Positions 725 through 8,085 of a stretch of DNA of 8,085 nt are shown here, piece by piece. The DNA comes from a bacterium (GTDB taxonomy: Bacteria > UBP15 > UBA6099 > DSWB01). The translations under genes and the position numbers were made by a program. Every line of letters begins with the position of its first letter. Positions within the stretch are counted from its first letter, which is position 1. The DNA lies in the NCBI GenBank assembly GCA_020061125.1, contig JAGUYV010000323.1, forward strand, positions 1 through 8,085, read 5' to 3'. The notes under the pieces were generated by a model that saw only the letters and a list, made by a program, of their open reading frames with translations, ran no database searches and was not told the DNA's origin.

Positions 725-752
725 CAATAATCCAGACTATGAATCGTTGCGC

Positions 753-758
753 GGGAGG
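753..758 (+). promoter_or_regulatory. Shine-Dalgarno site (GGGAGG) that sets the plsC start
   Basis: GGGAGG lies 10 bases before the ATG at 769. An in-frame ATG at 739 would place this site inside the coding sequence and has no comparable site of its own, so 769 is preferred. Confidence 0.6.
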
Positions 759-768
759 GTCTTTGGCC

Positions 769-1581
769 ATGACGCCGGAACAGGAACAGAGCTACCAGGC
801 ATTTCAGAAAGTCGCCGGGCTGTTTTACAACACATTTATTGACACCAGCATCCAGAACCCGCATTTTGTGCCGGACGAAGGGCCTTTCGTGCTCGTGGCC
901 AACCACCGCAGCGACCTGGATCCTTTTCTGCTCATCGTGAACATCAAACGCGTGATCAACTGGCTCGGGGCCAGTTACTTGTGGAACATCCCCGGGTCGC
1001 GCCAACTCATGAACATTCTGGGCGCCATCCCCGTGTCCAAGTACCAGAGCGAAATCGAGCGCGCGTTCGATACGGCGGTTGGGCAACTCGAAAAGGGCCA
1101 GGGCGTGGGCCTGTTTCCCGAGGGCTGGGATTACATATCGAAGAACCAGTTCGACTGGAGCGTGGGCGAATTCAACACAGGGTTCGCACGCATCGCCATG
1201 CGCGCGGGCGCGCCTGTGGTGCCCGTGGCCCTGCAGGGGTTCAGCGAGCGGCGCGGCCGTCAGCCATTCCCCCCGTTCATGCGCAAAATTCTGGACTACC
1301 CCATCGAAATGCAGTACATCAAGGACCGGTGCGTATATAAAAAGCTGCACATCAATGTGGGCCGGCCCATGGCCCCGCCCACGGGCGCGAATGTCAATGA
1401 CCGTGACGCGGTGCGCGAGTTCACGCACCAGGTGAACATGAAGGTCATCGAGCTGTACGACGAGTTCCCCACGGCGCCGGGTTTCGAGGGCGTGCGCCGC
1501 GAGCCTGCCGGCCCGCGCGTGGAAACCGACCCGCAGAAGGTCGAAGCCGAGGAACTCGAAGACGCGGGACTGGAAAGCTGA
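769..1581 (+). CDS. plsC: 1-acyl-sn-glycerol-3-phosphate acyltransferase family protein (PlsC-like)
   Basis: The protein has 270 residues. PlsC-type enzymes transfer an acyl chain to lysophosphatidic acid, making phosphatidic acid for membrane lipids at the inner face of the membrane. Visible motifs are block I NHRSDLD (residues 45-51, the catalytic H-x4-D with H46 and D51), block III LFPEGWD (115-121, phosphate-binding FPEG), and block IV-like APVVPVAL (138-145). The order and spacing fit the LPLAT/PlsC fold. There is no clear N-terminal transmembrane helix, so it is probably peripheral. The C-terminus has a charged, acidic tail of about 35 residues after the fold that I do not recognise. 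The ATG at 769 is chosen over the in-frame ATG at 739 because of the GGGAGG site. The next gene begins 13 bases after the stop, suggesting co-transcription. The acyl acceptor could differ; membership in the acyltransferase family is secure. Confidence 0.88.
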   Translation: MTPEQEQSYQAFQKVAGLFYNTFIDTSIQNPHFVPDEGPFVLVANHRSDLDPFLLIVNIKRVINWLGASYLWNIPGSRQLMNILGAIPVSKYQSEIERAFDTAVGQLEKGQGVGLFPEGWDYISKNQFDWSVGEFNTGFARIAMRAGAPVVPVALQGFSERRGRQPFPPFMRKILDYPIEMQYIKDRCVYKKLHINVGRPMAPPTGANVNDRDAVREFTHQVNMKVIELYDEFPTAPGFEGVRREPAGPRVETDPQKVEAEELEDAGLES

Positions 1582-1594
1582 CCGGAGGCGACGC

Positions 1595-2416
1595 GTGGAA
1601 CAGGAATTCACCGGAACACAGAATTACATTACATCCCAGGCCCTGCGCGAGGTGGTGAATGCGGCCGTGGCCCTGCAGCGTCCCCTGCTGGTCAAGGGCG
1701 AACCCGGAACCGGCAAAACCCTGCTCGCAACGGCCATCGCCGAGGACCTGGGCAAACCCCTCATCAAGTGGCACATCAAATCCACCACCAAGGCCCGCGA
1801 CGGCCTCTATGTCTACGACACCGTGCAGCGCCTGCACGACAGCCGCTTCCAGGACCACGATGTCAGCGACATCAAGCACTACATCCGGCTGGGCCAGCTC
1901 GGACAGGCCTTCACCGCGCCCGGACAGGTCGTGCTGCTCATTGACGAAATTGACAAGGCCGATCTGGAGTTCCCCAACGATCTGCTGAACGAACTCGACG
2001 AAATGTCGTTCCACATCCACGAAACCGGCGAGACCGTGTCCGCGCTCCAGCGGCCCATCGTGCTCATCACCAGCAACAATGAAAAGGAACTGCCGGACGC
2101 ATTCCTGCGGCGCTGCCTGTTCCACTACATCGAATTTCCAGACGAGGAACTGATGCGCGACATTGTGCGCGTGCACCACCCGGACATTCAAGACACGCTG
2201 CTCAAAGCGGCCATGGAGCGGTTCTATGAACTGCGCGCCATGGACGGCCTTCGCAAAAAGCCCTCCACCAGCGAACTCATTGACTGGATGCAGGCGCTCA
2301 TGATCGGCGGCGTCAGCCCCGAGGATCTGCACGCGCGCATCCCCTTCCTGGGCGTACTTCTCAAAAAAGAACAGGATACGGAGGCCGTGCTTTCGGAAAC
2401 GCGCCCGAGGCGTTGA
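1595..2416 (+). CDS. MoxR-family AAA+ ATPase
   Basis: The protein has 273 residues with a GTG start preceded by GGAGG at 1584-1588, a spacing of 6 bases. It is a AAA+ ATPase of the MoxR class (COG0714). Walker A is GEPGTGKT (35-42), Walker B is VVLLIDE (112-118), sensor 1 is around TSNN (159-162), and a putative arginine finger is R172/R173. The block IKWHIKSTTKARDGLYVYD (57-75) is characteristic of the CoxD-like MoxR group. Members act in the cytoplasm as chaperone-like remodelers, usually with a von Willebrand factor A (VWA) protein encoded next to them, for assembly of metal or multi-subunit complexes. No VWA gene follows here: the next gene is a 75-residue unknown with its own putative promoter. 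It is probably co-transcribed with the acyltransferase gene 13 bases upstream. The client is unknown. Confidence 0.88.
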   Translation: MEQEFTGTQNYITSQALREVVNAAVALQRPLLVKGEPGTGKTLLATAIAEDLGKPLIKWHIKSTTKARDGLYVYDTVQRLHDSRFQDHDVSDIKHYIRLGQLGQAFTAPGQVVLLIDEIDKADLEFPNDLLNELDEMSFHIHETGETVSALQRPIVLITSNNEKELPDAFLRRCLFHYIEFPDEELMRDIVRVHHPDIQDTLLKAAMERFYELRAMDGLRKKPSTSELIDWMQALMIGGVSPEDLHARIPFLGVLLKKEQDTEAVLSETRPRR

Positions 2417-2819: not shown

Positions 2820-5800
2820 TTATAATGCCTGCGGTGCGGGCTGCACGGCCGCGAGCAAGGCGCGCGCGCGCGCCGCAAAGGTTTGATTAATCTGCGCGGC
2901 CTGGGCTGCGGCGCCGTTCGCGAGAATCAGAGAGCGCGCCAGGGCCGCGGATTCGGCGGCCACATCCGCATCGCCCAGGCCCGAGGCCACGGCCGACACC
3001 CGAGTCACGGCTTCGTGAAGCATGTCCGCCTGGATTTTGAATATCTTCAGATTCACGCCTATCTGTTCGCGCATAAGCGCGAGGGCCTCGAGCGCCTTGT
3101 CCGCCTGGTCAATGGCTTCGAGCGCGCCGCTCTGCGAGGCCAGGCTCAACTGGCTGATGCCCAGCCCGCCCGTGCGCGCGTCCGCATAATACACGCCGAT
3201 CCGGTCCTCGTCCGCGCTGCCCGCGCCGGCCTGCACCTGGGATTCCTTGTAGGTTACGGCCAGGTCGTTGTACACCGCGCCCCCGGCGCTTTCATACACA
3301 ATGGCATTGCCGTTCGGCGACACATCGGCATAGTCCGCGCCGGGCACGGTTCCGGTGACCAGGCTTTCGTCGCGGGTGAGGAAGTCGTAGTAATAGATCG
3401 CGCCCCCGCGCGTGTACAGCACGGCGCCTCCCGAGGGCAGAAACGCGGGGTTGTCTCCGGTCACGGCCGCGCCCGCGCTTGTGAGCAACTGGGACTCATT
3501 GCCGGAAAGATCCGAATACCAGATGTCGCCCGCGCGGGTGAAAAAGACCTGGTCCTCGCGAGGATGCCACACCGGGCTTTGCCCGTTGGCGGTCAGGAAA
3601 ACGGGCGTTCCGGTCGTTCCGCCGGTGCATGCTCCGCCGCTCATTTGAATGTAATAGATGTCGCCGTCGCGGTTCCAGGCAATGTATTTCTCATCGGCGC
3701 TCCATGTGGGATCCGAGTCGTCGCTCGCGTCGTTTGTCAACGCGGTTACAGTTCCGCCTGACGCGATGAAAATGTCTGACACCCAGGGATCCGCGGCGCT
3801 GGTGTACCAGGTGTTGCGGTTGGAGGCGAACACAATGCCGCCGCCGCCCCAGTCGGGATCGCGGTCTTCATAACAGATTGCGGCCAGGGGCAGATAGGGA
3901 TTCGCGTCGTCGGCGCCAGGCGCGCCGGGGCCGCCGTCTATGTACCAGGGATACTTGTCGCCGTCCGCGTCAATTGAGTTGTCAAACGGCACCAGCGGGT
4001 TCGTCGGATCCTGGTCGAAAAGCGGATGATCCGCGAATCCGTCGCCGTCCGCGTCGCCGGGATTGAGGCCGGGAATGGTGTTGTTGCCTGGAGCGGGATC
4101 AAAAATGTCCGGGATGCCGTCGTTGTCGGTGTCAACATTGGTTGGGTACTGGTTGTCTCCGGGCACGGGGTCGAACAGGCCGCCCGCATCGTCTGGATAT
4201 CCGTCTCCGTCCGCGTCGGTGTTTGTGGGGTAATTCGGGTTGGCTGGCAGGGGATCGAAAATATCGAAAATGCCGTCGCCGTCGGAATCCACATTGTCGT
4301 TGACTCCGGGCTGGGGATCCAGGGCGTCGGGGATGGTGTCACCGTCGCCGTCCGGGGGGTTGAGCGGATAGAGCGGGTCCGTGGGATTGTAGTCAAAAAA
4401 ATCGAGAACGCCGTCACCGTCCGTGTCCGGGTTGTCCGGGAAGTTCGGATTGGCGGGCCAGAAGTCGTAGAAATCAATGATGCTGTCGCCGTCCGTGTCC
4501 AGGGGCGCGGCGTTGTGCGCTGCCGGGTTTGTGTCCCAGGGATCGTAGAAATCAATGTACCCGTCGGCGTCGGTGTCCGGGGGCGCGCCGCCGGGGTTGA
4601 GGGGGTCGCCGTCGTCCGGATCCATGGCCGTTGGCCAGCCGTCGCCATCGCCGTCCTGAAAGCTGGCGGCGTTCACCAGCGGATCGCCGGGGCTGGGATC
4701 GTAGATGTCAATCTCTCCGTCGCCGTCGCTGTCCGGCGGATTTTTTGGCAGATTGGGATCTCCGCCCCACCCGTCCCACGAATTGATGATGCCATCGCCG
4801 TCCGTGTCCGGTGCAAGCGGGTAATTGGGGTTGTTGCTGAAGTCGCTTGCGCCCTTGCGATCGTAGTAGTCAATCACACCGTCGCCGTCGCTGTCCTTGA
4901 GCGGATCCGGTGAGTATGGATTGGAATCGTCGGGGTCCATCCAGGGGTGGTCCACGAAGCCGTCGCCGTCCGCGTCCACATTTGTCGGGGTGGAGGGGTC
5001 AGTGTCATCGGCGTCTATCCAGGGATGGTTGATGTACCCGTCGCCGTCCGTATCCGCGAAGGTTCCGGGCAGGAGCGGGTCCGCGGGAAACGGATCAATG
5101 GGATCGGGCCATCCGTCGCCGTCCGTATCCGGCGCGCCGGGATACAGATTATTTCCGTCGTACTGGTCGGACAGAGGATGATTGACGAACCCGTCGCCGT
5201 CCGAGTCGCCGGGCGCATTGGGCGGGTCCGGAGTCTGCATGGTTGTGGGGCCGGGGACGGGGGTGCGGCTCCAGATACGCCATGCGTTGGTGGCCGGGAA
5301 GCGGCTTGCGTGAACCGCGTCGGATTCATAGGCCACGAGCGTGCCGCCCGCGTTCCAGGTGGGGTGCAGACCCGGGGTGATCACGGCCGTGCTGTTCGAG
5401 GCCTCGATTTTTTCGATGCGGTTGCCTTTTAGGATGTACTTGTTATTGAATGTTGTGGATTCGGCGATGTCGTTGATGAGGGCTTTGAGGCCCTGGGCTT
5501 CGATGTTGATGCGAGTGCGGTCCTCGCAGGTATCGGCGAGCGTAGCTTCATTGGAAGCGCGCAAAGCGAGGTCACGGATCTGGAGAACCGCGTCCGTGAC
5601 CTCGATGAGCGCTGCGTCCTGAATCTGCGCCAAGCTGATGGCGCCCTGCACATTTTCGATGGCCTGCCGCATGGCGCGCATTTGCGCGCGGGCGGCGTTC
5701 AGCCGTTGAAGATCCGAGGGCGCATCAGCGGCTTTGTTGATGCGCAGGCCGGTGCTCAACCGCTGCATGCTGACGCTTACGGCATCGCCGTTGCGCCGCA

Positions 5801-5849
5801 GCCATTGCCGGTGCAGCAGAGAGCCTGCATGAAATTCCACTGACGCCAT
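2820..5849 (-). CDS. Flagellin-like chimera: flagellin ends, split TolB/PD40-like propeller and TSP3 repeats
   Basis: The protein has 1009 residues; typical flagellins have about 270-500. Residues 1-142 are a flagellin D0/D1 N-terminus: QRLSTGLRINKAADAPSDL at 29-47 and IAESTTFNNKYILKG at 128-142. Residues 890-1009 are the C-terminal D1/D0 helices, with GDADVAAESAALARSLIL at 959-976 and AQAAQINQ at 982-989. Between them lie one PD40/TolB-like blade (about 158-200), 17 DxDxDG calcium-type repeats (215-632), five more blades (about 656-880) and a short linker. There is no Sec signal; family members are exported by the flagellar type III system and polymerise into the filament. The ATG at 5849 is preferred because it puts the RLS-GLRIN motif at the usual distance (residue 30); an in-frame GTG at 5876 would add nine residues. 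The gene is alone, with no other flagellar gene in the window. The best upstream promoter is at 6414-6442. A hook-associated (FlgL-like) or non-filament role is possible. Confidence 0.87.
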   Translation of the reverse strand: MASVEFHAGSLLHRQWLRRNGDAVSVSMQRLSTGLRINKAADAPSDLQRLNAARAQMRAMRQAIENVQGAISLAQIQDAALIEVTDAVLQIRDLALRASNEATLADTCEDRTRINIEAQGLKALINDIAESTTFNNKYILKGNRIEKIEASNSTAVITPGLHPTWNAGGTLVAYESDAVHASRFPATNAWRIWSRTPVPGPTTMQTPDPPNAPGDSDGDGFVNHPLSDQYDGNNLYPGAPDTDGDGWPDPIDPFPADPLLPGTFADTDGDGYINHPWIDADDTDPSTPTNVDADGDGFVDHPWMDPDDSNPYSPDPLKDSDGDGVIDYYDRKGASDFSNNPNYPLAPDTDGDGIINSWDGWGGDPNLPKNPPDSDGDGEIDIYDPSPGDPLVNAASFQDGDGDGWPTAMDPDDGDPLNPGGAPPDTDADGYIDFYDPWDTNPAAHNAAPLDTDGDSIIDFYDFWPANPNFPDNPDTDGDGVLDFFDYNPTDPLYPLNPPDGDGDTIPDALDPQPGVNDNVDSDGDGIFDIFDPLPANPNYPTNTDADGDGYPDDAGGLFDPVPGDNQYPTNVDTDNDGIPDIFDPAPGNNTIPGLNPGDADGDGFADHPLFDQDPTNPLVPFDNSIDADGDKYPWYIDGGPGAPGADDANPYLPLAAICYEDRDPDWGGGGIVFASNRNTWYTSAADPWVSDIFIASGGTVTALTNDASDDSDPTWSADEKYIAWNRDGDIYYIQMSGGACTGGTTGTPVFLTANGQSPVWHPREDQVFFTRAGDIWYSDLSGNESQLLTSAGAAVTGDNPAFLPSGGAVLYTRGGAIYYYDFLTRDESLVTGTVPGADYADVSPNGNAIVYESAGGAVYNDLAVTYKESQVQAGAGSADEDRIGVYYADARTGGLGISQLSLASQSGALEAIDQADKALEALALMREQIGVNLKIFKIQADMLHEAVTRVSAVASGLGDADVAAESAALARSLILANGAAAQAAQINQTFAARARALLAAVQPAPQAL
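3885..5213 (-). repeat. Array of 17 thrombospondin-type-3-like DxDxDG repeats inside the flagellin-like gene
   Basis: Coding repeats begin at residues 215, 241, 266, 292, 319, 348, 373, 399, 425, 451, 475, 500, 521, 545, 573, 599 and 627, so the period is 21-29 residues and mostly 24-28. The core is D-S/T/A-D-G-D-G, as in EF-hand-like calcium loops of TSP3 repeats, usually followed by a hydrophobic pair, then D-x-x-D-P and a proline-ended linker. Five copies have a changed core (DTDADG, DTDGDS, DGDGDT, DTDNDG, DADGDK). On the plus strand the array appears as recurring runs such as CCGTCGCCGTCCG. It is protein-coding, not a CRISPR. Confidence 0.85.
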
Positions 5850-6519
5850 AGGCCGTCCCTGAACCCTGGTGATCACCCTCCCTCGTGGAGGGTCCTGCGG
5901 GCGTCAGTGCTGCCTTTCACCCTAGCTGCATTCGGAGATGCGCCGGGGGCCGGACCGCGTGCTTCCCGATGGAAGTCAGGCGGAAATCCGCGCGAATGCT
6001 TTTACAATTTCAGCAACTCCTCCAACAAGAGCCGCGCTGTGAGGACGGCCGCCCCGCGCCGTGCGCGGCGCGATTCCGGCGGCCCCGGGGTCTCCGTGTG
6101 TTTGAGATCTCCGTTTCTCGACAGCAGTCCCGCGCGCATCCGTGCGCGCGTGCGCTTGCGCGATGCCTGTGCGCAGCAATCGCCCCCGGCCGGGGACGCA
6201 GAGCCTTGCCCGGTGACACGCACGCCATGCGCGGTTTGCCCGATACGCCGCGGCCGCGTGTTTGCGCATAAGCATTCTGTTTGCAAACGCGCAAAAGTCA
6301 CCAATGAGTAGTCATTTGGATGTGGGAAAAGGCTCGAACCGGGTTCCGTGGCTCCGGCGGGCGGCTGACCCGCTGCGGAAAATCCGGCGTGCGCATATTC
6401 ATCAACTGCTTCAACTTAACCATAAATAGCGGATTCTGTCAAGCGTCCGGCAAAATATTTTTCACCATGGATACTGGCGATCTTCGAACATCCGCGCCCG
6501 CGCTCATCCCGCACCATTG
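5850..6519. other. Intergenic region with no convincing gene; inverted repeats and a minus-strand promoter
   Basis: About 670 bases separate the flagellin-like gene from the Xsc terminator. The short frames here have atypical Arg/Ala/Cys-rich products and no ribosome-binding sites. Visible structures are a 7-bp stem at 6055-6072 (loop TGCG), an 8-bp perfect stem at 6131-6150 (loop TCCG), a 12-base palindrome CCCCGGCCGGGG at 6184-6195, TTTGCGC/GCGCAAA arms at 6261-6267 and 6289-6295 around a GTTTGCAAAC palindrome (6279-6288), and AATGA-GTAG-TCATT at 6303-6316. The part 6395-6480 is clearly more AT-rich and holds the promoter. It is most likely a long regulatory leader for the flagellin-like gene, or contains an unrecognised small RNA. 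Confidence 0.5.
6414..6442 (-). promoter_or_regulatory. Sigma70-type promoter (TTGACA, 17 bases, TTAAGT)
   Basis: On the minus strand a perfect -35 TTGACA (6442-6437) is followed by 17 bases and TTAAGT (6419-6414), a weak -10 box, in a locally AT-rich stretch. Predicted transcription starts near 6407 and runs toward the flagellin-like gene, leaving a leader of roughly 560 bases. No sigma28 (TAAA / GCCGATAA) or sigma54 flagellar promoter was seen closer to that gene. Confidence 0.5.
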
Positions 6520-6583: not shown

Positions 6584-8085
6584 TTACTTCTTGGCGTTCA
6601 AGTGCTTGTACTTGGGAAGATAGCGCACGGGCATGTTGAGCGCATCGCGGCGGAACGGCTCGGCGAGCACTTCCTTGCCGCCCTGGATAACCGCCTCGAT
6701 GACCACGGGCTTGTCCAGCTTCACGGCTTGCTTCACGATGTCGCCCACGAGTTTGTAATCCTCGACCTTGTAGCCCACGGCGCCCATGTCGGTGGCGAGC
6801 TGCGCGTAGCTCGGGTTCTCGCGAAGGTTCGCGCCCACGAACCGGTTGTTGTAGTAATCAATCTGGTTCTTCTTCTCCGCGCCCCACTCGTAGTTCTGGA
6901 ACACCACGGCGATGACGGGGATCTTCTCGCGCACAGCGGTCATGACCTCGGAAAGGCCGGAGATGCCGTATGCGCCGTCGCCCTGGAGCGCGAACACGGG
7001 CTTGTCCGGGCGGCCGAGCTTGCAGCCCATGGCCGCGCCGTACGCGAACCCGCAGTTGCCCCACGACAGCGCGCTGATGTGCTGGCGCACATCCGTGAAC
7101 TTGAGGTAGCTGTTGCACATGGACGAGGTGTTGCCGATGTCCGTGGCCACGATCGAGCCTTTGGGCATGGCCGCGGTCAGCTCGCGCAGCAGGCGGCGCG
7201 GGGTCATGAGCGCGTTCGTGCTGCTGGACCACCCCGTAAGCTCCTTGTCCCACTTGGCGTTCTCTTTGGCGATCTCGTCCAGGCGCTTGGCGTTGGGCTT
7301 GAGGCCCTTCTTGATTTTCTTGATTTCCGCCAGCACGGCCGCCGCGAACTCTTTGGAGTCGGCCAGGACGCCGTGCTCGACCTTCATGCTGATGCCCAGC
7401 ACCTTGTGGTCAATGTCCACCTGGATGACCTTCGCGTTCTTGGGCCAGTATACCATGTCGTACTGGGGCAGAGTGCCGAAAGGCCCGAGGCGGCAGCCCA
7501 GGGCCAGCACCACATCCGCCTTCTTGATGGTGCGCATGGCGGCCTTGGAGCCGCAGTAGCCGATCGGCCCCACGGCCAGCGGATGGCTCTGGGGGAACGA
7601 ATCATTGTGCAGATACGAGTTCACCACGGGCGCGGTGAGATATTCGGCCAGCGCTTTGGTTTCCTTGAGCGCATCGCCCATGGACACGCCGCCGCCCGCC
7701 AGAATCACGGGATACTTGGCGCCGGCCAGCAGTTTCGCCGCGGCCGCGACCTGGCTCATGGCGCCGGGGCCGCGCAGCACATCCTGGGTCTTGTAAATCT
7801 CGTCGTTGCACTCGCCGTAGAAATAATCGCGGGGGATGTTCAATTGCGTGGGGCCGCACTCGGCCTTGGCCATATAGAACGCGCGGCGCGCGAGTTCGGC
7901 CATGCGGTCCGGCCGGTTCACGCGCACGCCGTACTTCACGCTGCGCTCGAACATGGGCATCTGATCGAGTTCCTGGAACCCGCCGGTGCCGATGCCCTTG
8001 GAGCCGGTCTCCGGGGTGATGGCCACCACCGGGGAGTGCGCCCAGAACGCGGCGGTCATGGCGGACACGAAATTGGCGGCGCCGG
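6584..8085 (-). CDS. xsc: Sulfoacetaldehyde acetyltransferase (Xsc), C-terminal part (partial)
   Basis: The frame is open to the window edge: about 499 residues of a family that is usually near 590-600, so roughly 90 N-terminal residues are missing, including the expected catalytic glutamate. Xsc is a cytoplasmic thiamine-diphosphate enzyme that converts sulfoacetaldehyde and phosphate to acetyl phosphate and sulfite in taurine and other C2-sulfonate degradation. Visible family features are ETGSKGIGTGGFQE in the PYR domain, VDID closing the central domain, DIGN and GDGAYG (codons at about 6967-6982) of the TPP/Mg site with the matching N 29 residues on, NYEWGAEKKNQ just after it, and AEPFRRDAL near the C-terminus. 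NY-WGAEK-N and EPFRRDA distinguish Xsc from acetolactate synthase and oxalyl-CoA decarboxylase, as I recall the family. The GTG at 8068 is internal, since family-like sequence (ANF) continues upstream of it. A terminator follows. No pta gene, often the partner, is on the visible side. Confidence 0.87.
   Translation of the reverse strand, partial: GAANFVSAMTAAFWAHSPVVAITPETGSKGIGTGGFQELDQMPMFERSVKYGVRVNRPDRMAELARRAFYMAKAECGPTQLNIPRDYFYGECNDEIYKTQDVLRGPGAMSQVAAAAKLLAGAKYPVILAGGGVSMGDALKETKALAEYLTAPVVNSYLHNDSFPQSHPLAVGPIGYCGSKAAMRTIKKADVVLALGCRLGPFGTLPQYDMVYWPKNAKVIQVDIDHKVLGISMKVEHGVLADSKEFAAAVLAEIKKIKKGLKPNAKRLDEIAKENAKWDKELTGWSSSTNALMTPRRLLRELTAAMPKGSIVATDIGNTSSMCNSYLKFTDVRQHISALSWGNCGFAYGAAMGCKLGRPDKPVFALQGDGAYGISGLSEVMTAVREKIPVIAVVFQNYEWGAEKKNQIDYYNNRFVGANLRENPSYAQLATDMGAVGYKVEDYKLVGDIVKQAVKLDKPVVIEAVIQGGKEVLAEPFRRDALNMPVRYLPKYKHLNAKK

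Follow-up and report, generated by a model that had tools for sequence, protein, structure and literature searches.

Insertion of modules into the hypervariable region of flagellins is already known. The study of Eckhard et al. 2017 (PMC5595980) gives 61 domain types in this region, with 86 cases of metallopeptidases, 21 of vWFA and 10 of Sialidase, and reports that protease-bearing flagellins form active filaments, flagellinolysin being displayed in Clostridium haemolyticum. The first-pass annotation of the present locus had called enzyme insertions in flagellin established, and this agrees with that source. A flagellin of 1020 amino acids builds real filaments in Bermanella marisrubri (PMC6248924). 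Added flagellin functions have been documented mostly gene by gene, and protease-bearing filaments are the best tested. Sialidases are propellers.

The gene described here lies in a window of 8,085 nucleotides, the whole stretch of DNA analysed, which is the entire contig C423 of a 4.1-Mb assembly that is 79% complete. Its product is a variant of the known type of insertion, with a calcium-repeat array nested in a propeller. Like flagellinolysin (NF033876), the window protein carries a foreign module in the hypervariable region between intact D0/D1 halves, but the module of flagellinolysin is a zinc metallopeptidase, whereas here a propeller and calcium-type repeats are present and no enzyme motif was recognised. 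The vWFA and Sialidase flagellins of Table 1 in PMC5595980 bear binding- or propeller-type modules, as does the window protein; the pair of a PD40 propeller and a calcium-repeat array is absent from the top-10 table of that paper. The giant flagellins of Bermanella and Oleibacter resemble the window protein in exceeding 1000 amino acids with a large central insert, and they demonstrate export and assembly of subunits this large; unlike the present insert, theirs are duplicated DE regions with no enzyme-domain match (PMC6248924). The propeller fold and the WSPDG-like blade motif are common to the window protein and TolB (2ivz, 4r40) or PD40 proteins, but the TolB N-terminal domain and the Tol-Pal context are missing here and blade 1 is split off. 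Tandem DxDxDGxxD calcium loops at about 26 residues occur in thrombospondin type 3 and bacterial TSP3 repeats, as here, although the window array has no cysteine and is under the Pfam TSP_3 cut-off. A TSP3-like OmpA-family protein (5wtl) gave a weak PDB match to the array (E 0.37). In the openly readable literature, no flagellin with a PD40 propeller or a TSP3 array was found described, and no lineage with a comparable range of module-bearing flagellins per genome was found.

The flagellin gene is unbroken on the minus strand, from an ATG at 5849 to the stop codon at 2820-2822, and encodes 1009 amino acids in the one uninterrupted frame that the first-pass annotation had read. An alternative in-frame start (GTG at 5876) would add nine residues. 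GC3 along the gene was 0.75-0.81 and thus coding-like. The gene is the only flagellar one on the 8-kb contig. Binning contamination was ruled out by a GC content of 0.626 and a tetranucleotide correlation of 0.94 with 17 other flagellin contigs, and further by the presence of the same subfamily in relatives. The window gene is one of a set of module-bearing flagellins found throughout its order. All features are collected in Table 1.

Table 1. Features of the window, of its genome and of related genomes (numbers are window positions; C, contigs of the own genome; L, loci; G, genomes)
Feature	Location	Strand	Evidence or remark
Flagellin with nested propeller and calcium-repeat array	2820..5849	-	open frame, translation, Pfam and NCBIfam flagellin matches
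N-terminal flagellin core D0/D1, residues 1-145	5415..5849	-	Flagellin_N, phmmer
Propeller blade 1, about residues 150-200	5250..5402	-	HPTWNAGGTLVAYES motif; six-blade motif alignment, L046 alignment
17 DxDGDG-type putative calcium-loop repeats, residues 215-640	3930..5207	-	motif count against shuffles, sub-threshold TSP_3
Propeller blades 2-6, residues 656-872	3234..3884	-	PD40, DPPIV_N, TolB fold match
C-terminal flagellin core D1/D0, residues 873-1009	2823..3233	-	Flagellin_C; two long helices in model
PlsC-like acyltransferase	739-1581	+	
MoxR/MadB-like AAA ATPase	1595-2416	+	follows the PlsC-like acyltransferase gene
Small open frame, 87 aa	2496-2759	+	matched no family; convergent with flagellin gene
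Open frames antisense to the flagellin gene	4026-4913, 2883-3761	+	295 and 292 aa
Sulfoacetaldehyde acetyltransferase, Xsc-like	6584-8068	-	693 bits; N-terminus lost at contig end
Protease-type flagellin	C328		HEMTH metallopeptidase motif; flagellinolysin model 81 bits, equivalog cut-off 205
Four vWA-type flagellins	C69, C189, C287, C433		Pfam VWA above cut-off for C69 only; segments of the other three assigned by motif and similarity
Propeller flagellin	C487		strong PD40/TolB; TIGR02800 300.8 bits
Propeller flagellin	C422		DPPIV_N/PD40
Flagellin with PPC-like segment	C180		by inspection
1025-residue open frame with beta-rich inserts	C299		no family assigned
flgB, flgC, fliE, fliF, fliG, fliH, N-terminal part of fliI	C165		together
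FliD	C84		
Nested-propeller subfamily, full or partial	window gene; C52 (own genome); L046 (G002); L047 (G006); L048 (G001)		
Metallopeptidase flagellin in relatives	L100		
vWA flagellins in relatives	L097, L098, L108		
PPC-like flagellins in relatives	L096, L103, L106, L107		
DUF2135-like flagellin in relatives	L104		
Sugar-binding-like flagellin in relatives	L099		
Flagellins with giant beta-rich inserts in relatives	L094, L095, L101, L105		

Both ends of the protein matched flagellin D0/D1 cores, as had been proposed. Flagellin_N (PF00669) gave 84.8 bits (E 7.7e-24, cut-off 26.6) over residues 22-152 of the longer GTG form, and the solved structures nearest to this core by phmmer were flagellins, the best being 9au6 (E 1.1e-19). 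No leader peptide was visible at the N-terminus on inspection of the translation. Flagellin_C (PF00700) gave 26.8 bits (E 6.8e-6, cut-off 23) when the C-terminal part was scored alone and 29.7 bits in the genome search, but on the whole protein it gave 22.4 bits, marginally below the cut-off. The D0 tail at the C-terminus has diverged and is rich in Ala. Both D0 arms have normal length, with 29 residues ahead of RLSTG, a standard number that other flagellins of this genome share. An identity as FlgL, the hook junction protein, was ruled out, as the best NCBIfam flagellin model scored 94.9 bits against 41.2 bits for the FlgL model TIGR02550. The window protein and the related flagellin L046 have in common an ND1 loop that is three residues longer and contains a cysteine (ADTCEDRT and RDDCSDRT); this loop was not seen in the other flagellins listed. 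A search 5' of the window gene revealed no FliA-like promoter, the best match (8/12) being at the level of shuffled sequence. A perfect FliA-type match (12/12) lies 5' of the FlgL homologue (L020:2882-4120), and the flagellin on C299 has one of 11/12.

The stretch between the Flagellin_N and Flagellin_C cores comprises about 725 residues. The TolB/PD40-like propeller proposed by the first-pass annotation was confirmed for residues 656-872 by matches to PD40 (E 2.6e-7) and DPPIV_N (E 6.1e-10), and TolB was the first Foldseek match of the predicted model (E 2.2e-9). Six WSPDG-like blade motifs were located by inspection near residues 163, 668, 714, 759, 801 and 843, so that the propeller is six-bladed. 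The first of these blades directly follows the N-terminal core and is by itself too short and weak for a Pfam match, while the other five lie between the array and the C-terminal core. Propeller and array do not stand side by side; the array is nested between blades 1 and 2 and splits the propeller. Comparison of the only partly confident model with TolB by VIA-align gave a Z score of 18.9 and an rmsd of 4.6 over 189 aligned residues. The AlphaFold prediction supported the propeller core, whose best blocks reached pLDDT 79-91, but not the whole protein; mean pLDDT was 35.8 at full length (4-row alignment) and 52.7 for the C-terminal part, which was confident in the propeller core only. Neither a peptidase domain nor an HExxH motif, as would mark a flagellinolysin, was found in the insert by Pfam search and inspection of the translation.

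The array consists of 17 DxD[GAN]D[GSTK] motifs between residues 215 and 632, spaced 21-29 residues apart. A chance repeat was ruled out, as 1000 shuffles gave a mean of 0.29 motifs and a maximum of 4. Residues 196-655 (460 residues) contain 106 D/E against 5 K/R and no cysteine. The loops are of a putative calcium-binding type, recognised from their tandem DxDxDG sequence. The TSP3-like repeats of the first-pass annotation were confirmed as regular loops, but assignment to Pfam TSP_3 (PF02412) was not, as a fragment reached 18.0 bits against a cut-off of 25 and the whole array gave no match. The label 'TSP3-like calcium-loop repeats' was therefore chosen.

The profile search found 21 Flagellin_N and 21 Flagellin_C matches in the genome of the window. 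Since these include the FlgL-type protein and fragments at contig ends, complete flagellins are somewhat fewer. Module-bearing flagellins were recognised from translations and Pfam (Table 1). The contigs C328, C422, C487 and C299 correspond to loci L018, L012, L011 and L009, and C287, C69, C189, C180 and C433 to L013-L017. The first-pass annotation had proposed looking for flagellar genes in the same genome; a cluster including the export components FliH and FliI is present, as is FliD on another contig. With these genes and the flagellin profile matches, neither condition named there as refuting the proposal applies. No FlhA, FliQ or full-length FlhB turned up in this genome, which is 79% complete; of the seven genomes in the order, five have FlhA and five a full or nearly full FlhB, so the gaps are read as incompleteness.

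The seven genomes of the order had 7-21 Flagellin_N matches each. In a sample of 290 genomes, scored up to a maximum of 13 matches each, five members of the order had 11-13. About 2-5 was the usual number in the remaining flagellated genomes, of which four reached 11 or more. Exposed modules occupy the same insertion site in many further flagellins of the order; several of the module labels in relatives (L094-L108) were assigned by inspection. In the core tree, which had uneven support and left roughly half of the internal branches open, the metallopeptidase pair, two vWA pairs and most of the giants clustered by module. This clustering suggests that the module types predate the species. The branch of the window protein was long (1.54). 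The start of one further PPC-like flagellin of a relative, L102 (G002:C36:20820-21223), is found in another frame, which contains two TGA stops; a frameshift or an assembly error may be the cause.

Nested-propeller flagellins were present in four of the seven genomes, three of them in addition to the own genome. L046, a flagellin of 983 residues adjoining secA, keeps the layout of blade 1, insert and blades 2-6, but its insert differs and contains two discoidin-like regions (F5_F8_type_C 16 bits, sub-threshold) among fewer repeats. In the relatives complete enough to see, such discoidin-like regions take the place of the expanded calcium array. The layout of the window protein thus recurs within the order with a different insert, but was not found outside it: in 379 sampled genomes, with at most five candidates scored in each, propeller and Flagellin_C matches were seen separately and never in one protein among the matches listed. 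A scan of genome contigs gave ten loci, of which L046 and L047 are flagellins of this order with Flagellin_N and L048 is the C-terminal part of a third; the remaining loci were propeller proteins with no flagellin match. On inspection, L071 proved to be a PD40 protein that carries DUF11-like repeats. The paralogue on C52 (L010:2-2026) is 5'-truncated, its N-terminal part lying beyond the contig end; like L046 it has discoidin-like regions among fewer repeats, and a phosphatidate cytidylyltransferase-like gene was recognised near it by inspection. C52 and L046 were 44% identical over 664 residues, against about 25% between the window protein and either of them, so C52 is likely the orthologue of L046 and the window gene a diverged paralogue. 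Flagellin_C reached 55.5 bits in C52 and 53.5 bits in L046, and the subfamily therefore keeps a polymerising-type core. The dN/dS ratio between L046 and L047 was 0.047 overall and 0.032 in the propeller, the lowest of the large modules. Such low values indicate strong purifying selection, and hence selection of the subfamily for function.

Judged by its sequence, the window protein is probably a minor subunit of the filament, presenting a calcium-folded binding module as part of an adhesive or sensing appendage. The outer flagellin domain would be replaced by the six-bladed TolB/PD40-type propeller with the 17-repeat array between blades 1 and 2, and through its D0/D1 helices the protein would join the filament as a minor or alternative subunit, among the numerous plain flagellins that the genome encodes. 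Outside the cell the propeller would close on D1 with blade 1 next to blade 6; this placement is proposed because the two end blades are neighbours and the flagellin arms share one exit point. Calcium would fold and rigidify the array after export, and the array would then project from the filament surface. Flagellins pass out through a narrow channel, and calcium-driven folding outside the cell aids the export of RTX proteins in type I secretion. Folding in a calcium-containing medium may also favour the outward movement of the window protein, in line with what has been proposed for RTX proteins. Exposed in this way, propeller and array would bind a surface, a polymer or a cell ligand, and adhesion or ligand capture is the most plausible role of such a minor subunit.

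The diverged C-terminal D0 tail, the near-threshold Flagellin_C match of the whole protein and the lack of a FliA-type promoter match speak against a simple filament role. Together with the solitary position of the gene on its contig and the long core branch, they would fit a flagellar-exported adhesin that does not polymerise, one in which export is the sole task of the flagellin ends and the product is secreted or resides on the cell surface or at the filament tip. Nevertheless, neither D0 arm is missing or of unusual length and Flagellin_C is strong in C52 and L046, and such an adhesin is considered unlikely. A purely mechanical giant flagellin, whose insert has no ligand and serves to thicken or stiffen the filament, is a more doubtful explanation. 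The giants of Bermanella and Oleibacter do make thick filaments without a recognisable functional domain (PMC6248924), and the acidic repeat array could become rigid with calcium. However, the insert is built on a fold of ligand-binding type, dN/dS in relatives is lower for the propeller region than for any other large module, and the protease and vWA modules of sister flagellins suggest varied surface functions. It is very improbable that the gene is a decaying or silent copy in an expanding and shuffling flagellin family, as its long branch, diverged ends and missing promoter might indicate, since the frame is open over 1009 codons with coding-like GC3, the 17 repeats are regular, the blade motifs are intact and the subfamily is conserved in three other genomes.

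The reading as a minor binding subunit concerns one gene of a genome with about 20 flagellins, many of them with added domains, and the flagella may thus be multi-tool surfaces and not only propellers. It is conceivable, though tentative, that they are composite, with plain flagellins interspersed with or tipped by paralogues that bear different exposed modules. These would include protease, vWA, propeller, discoidin-like and PPC-like modules and calcium arrays, the flagellum would be a modular display scaffold, and the window gene would contribute the propeller with its nested calcium array. If the paralogues were co-assembled, the flagellum of this lineage would be a programmable extracellular display fibre. 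The window gene is also a natural design in which a propeller is the platform for a second, nested insert, and it allows a test of whether extracellular calcium-driven folding helps export through the flagellar channel.

Among the other open frames of the window, the Xsc-like gene suggests organosulfonate use. The two frames antisense to the flagellin gene are most likely by-products of its GC-rich repeat codons.
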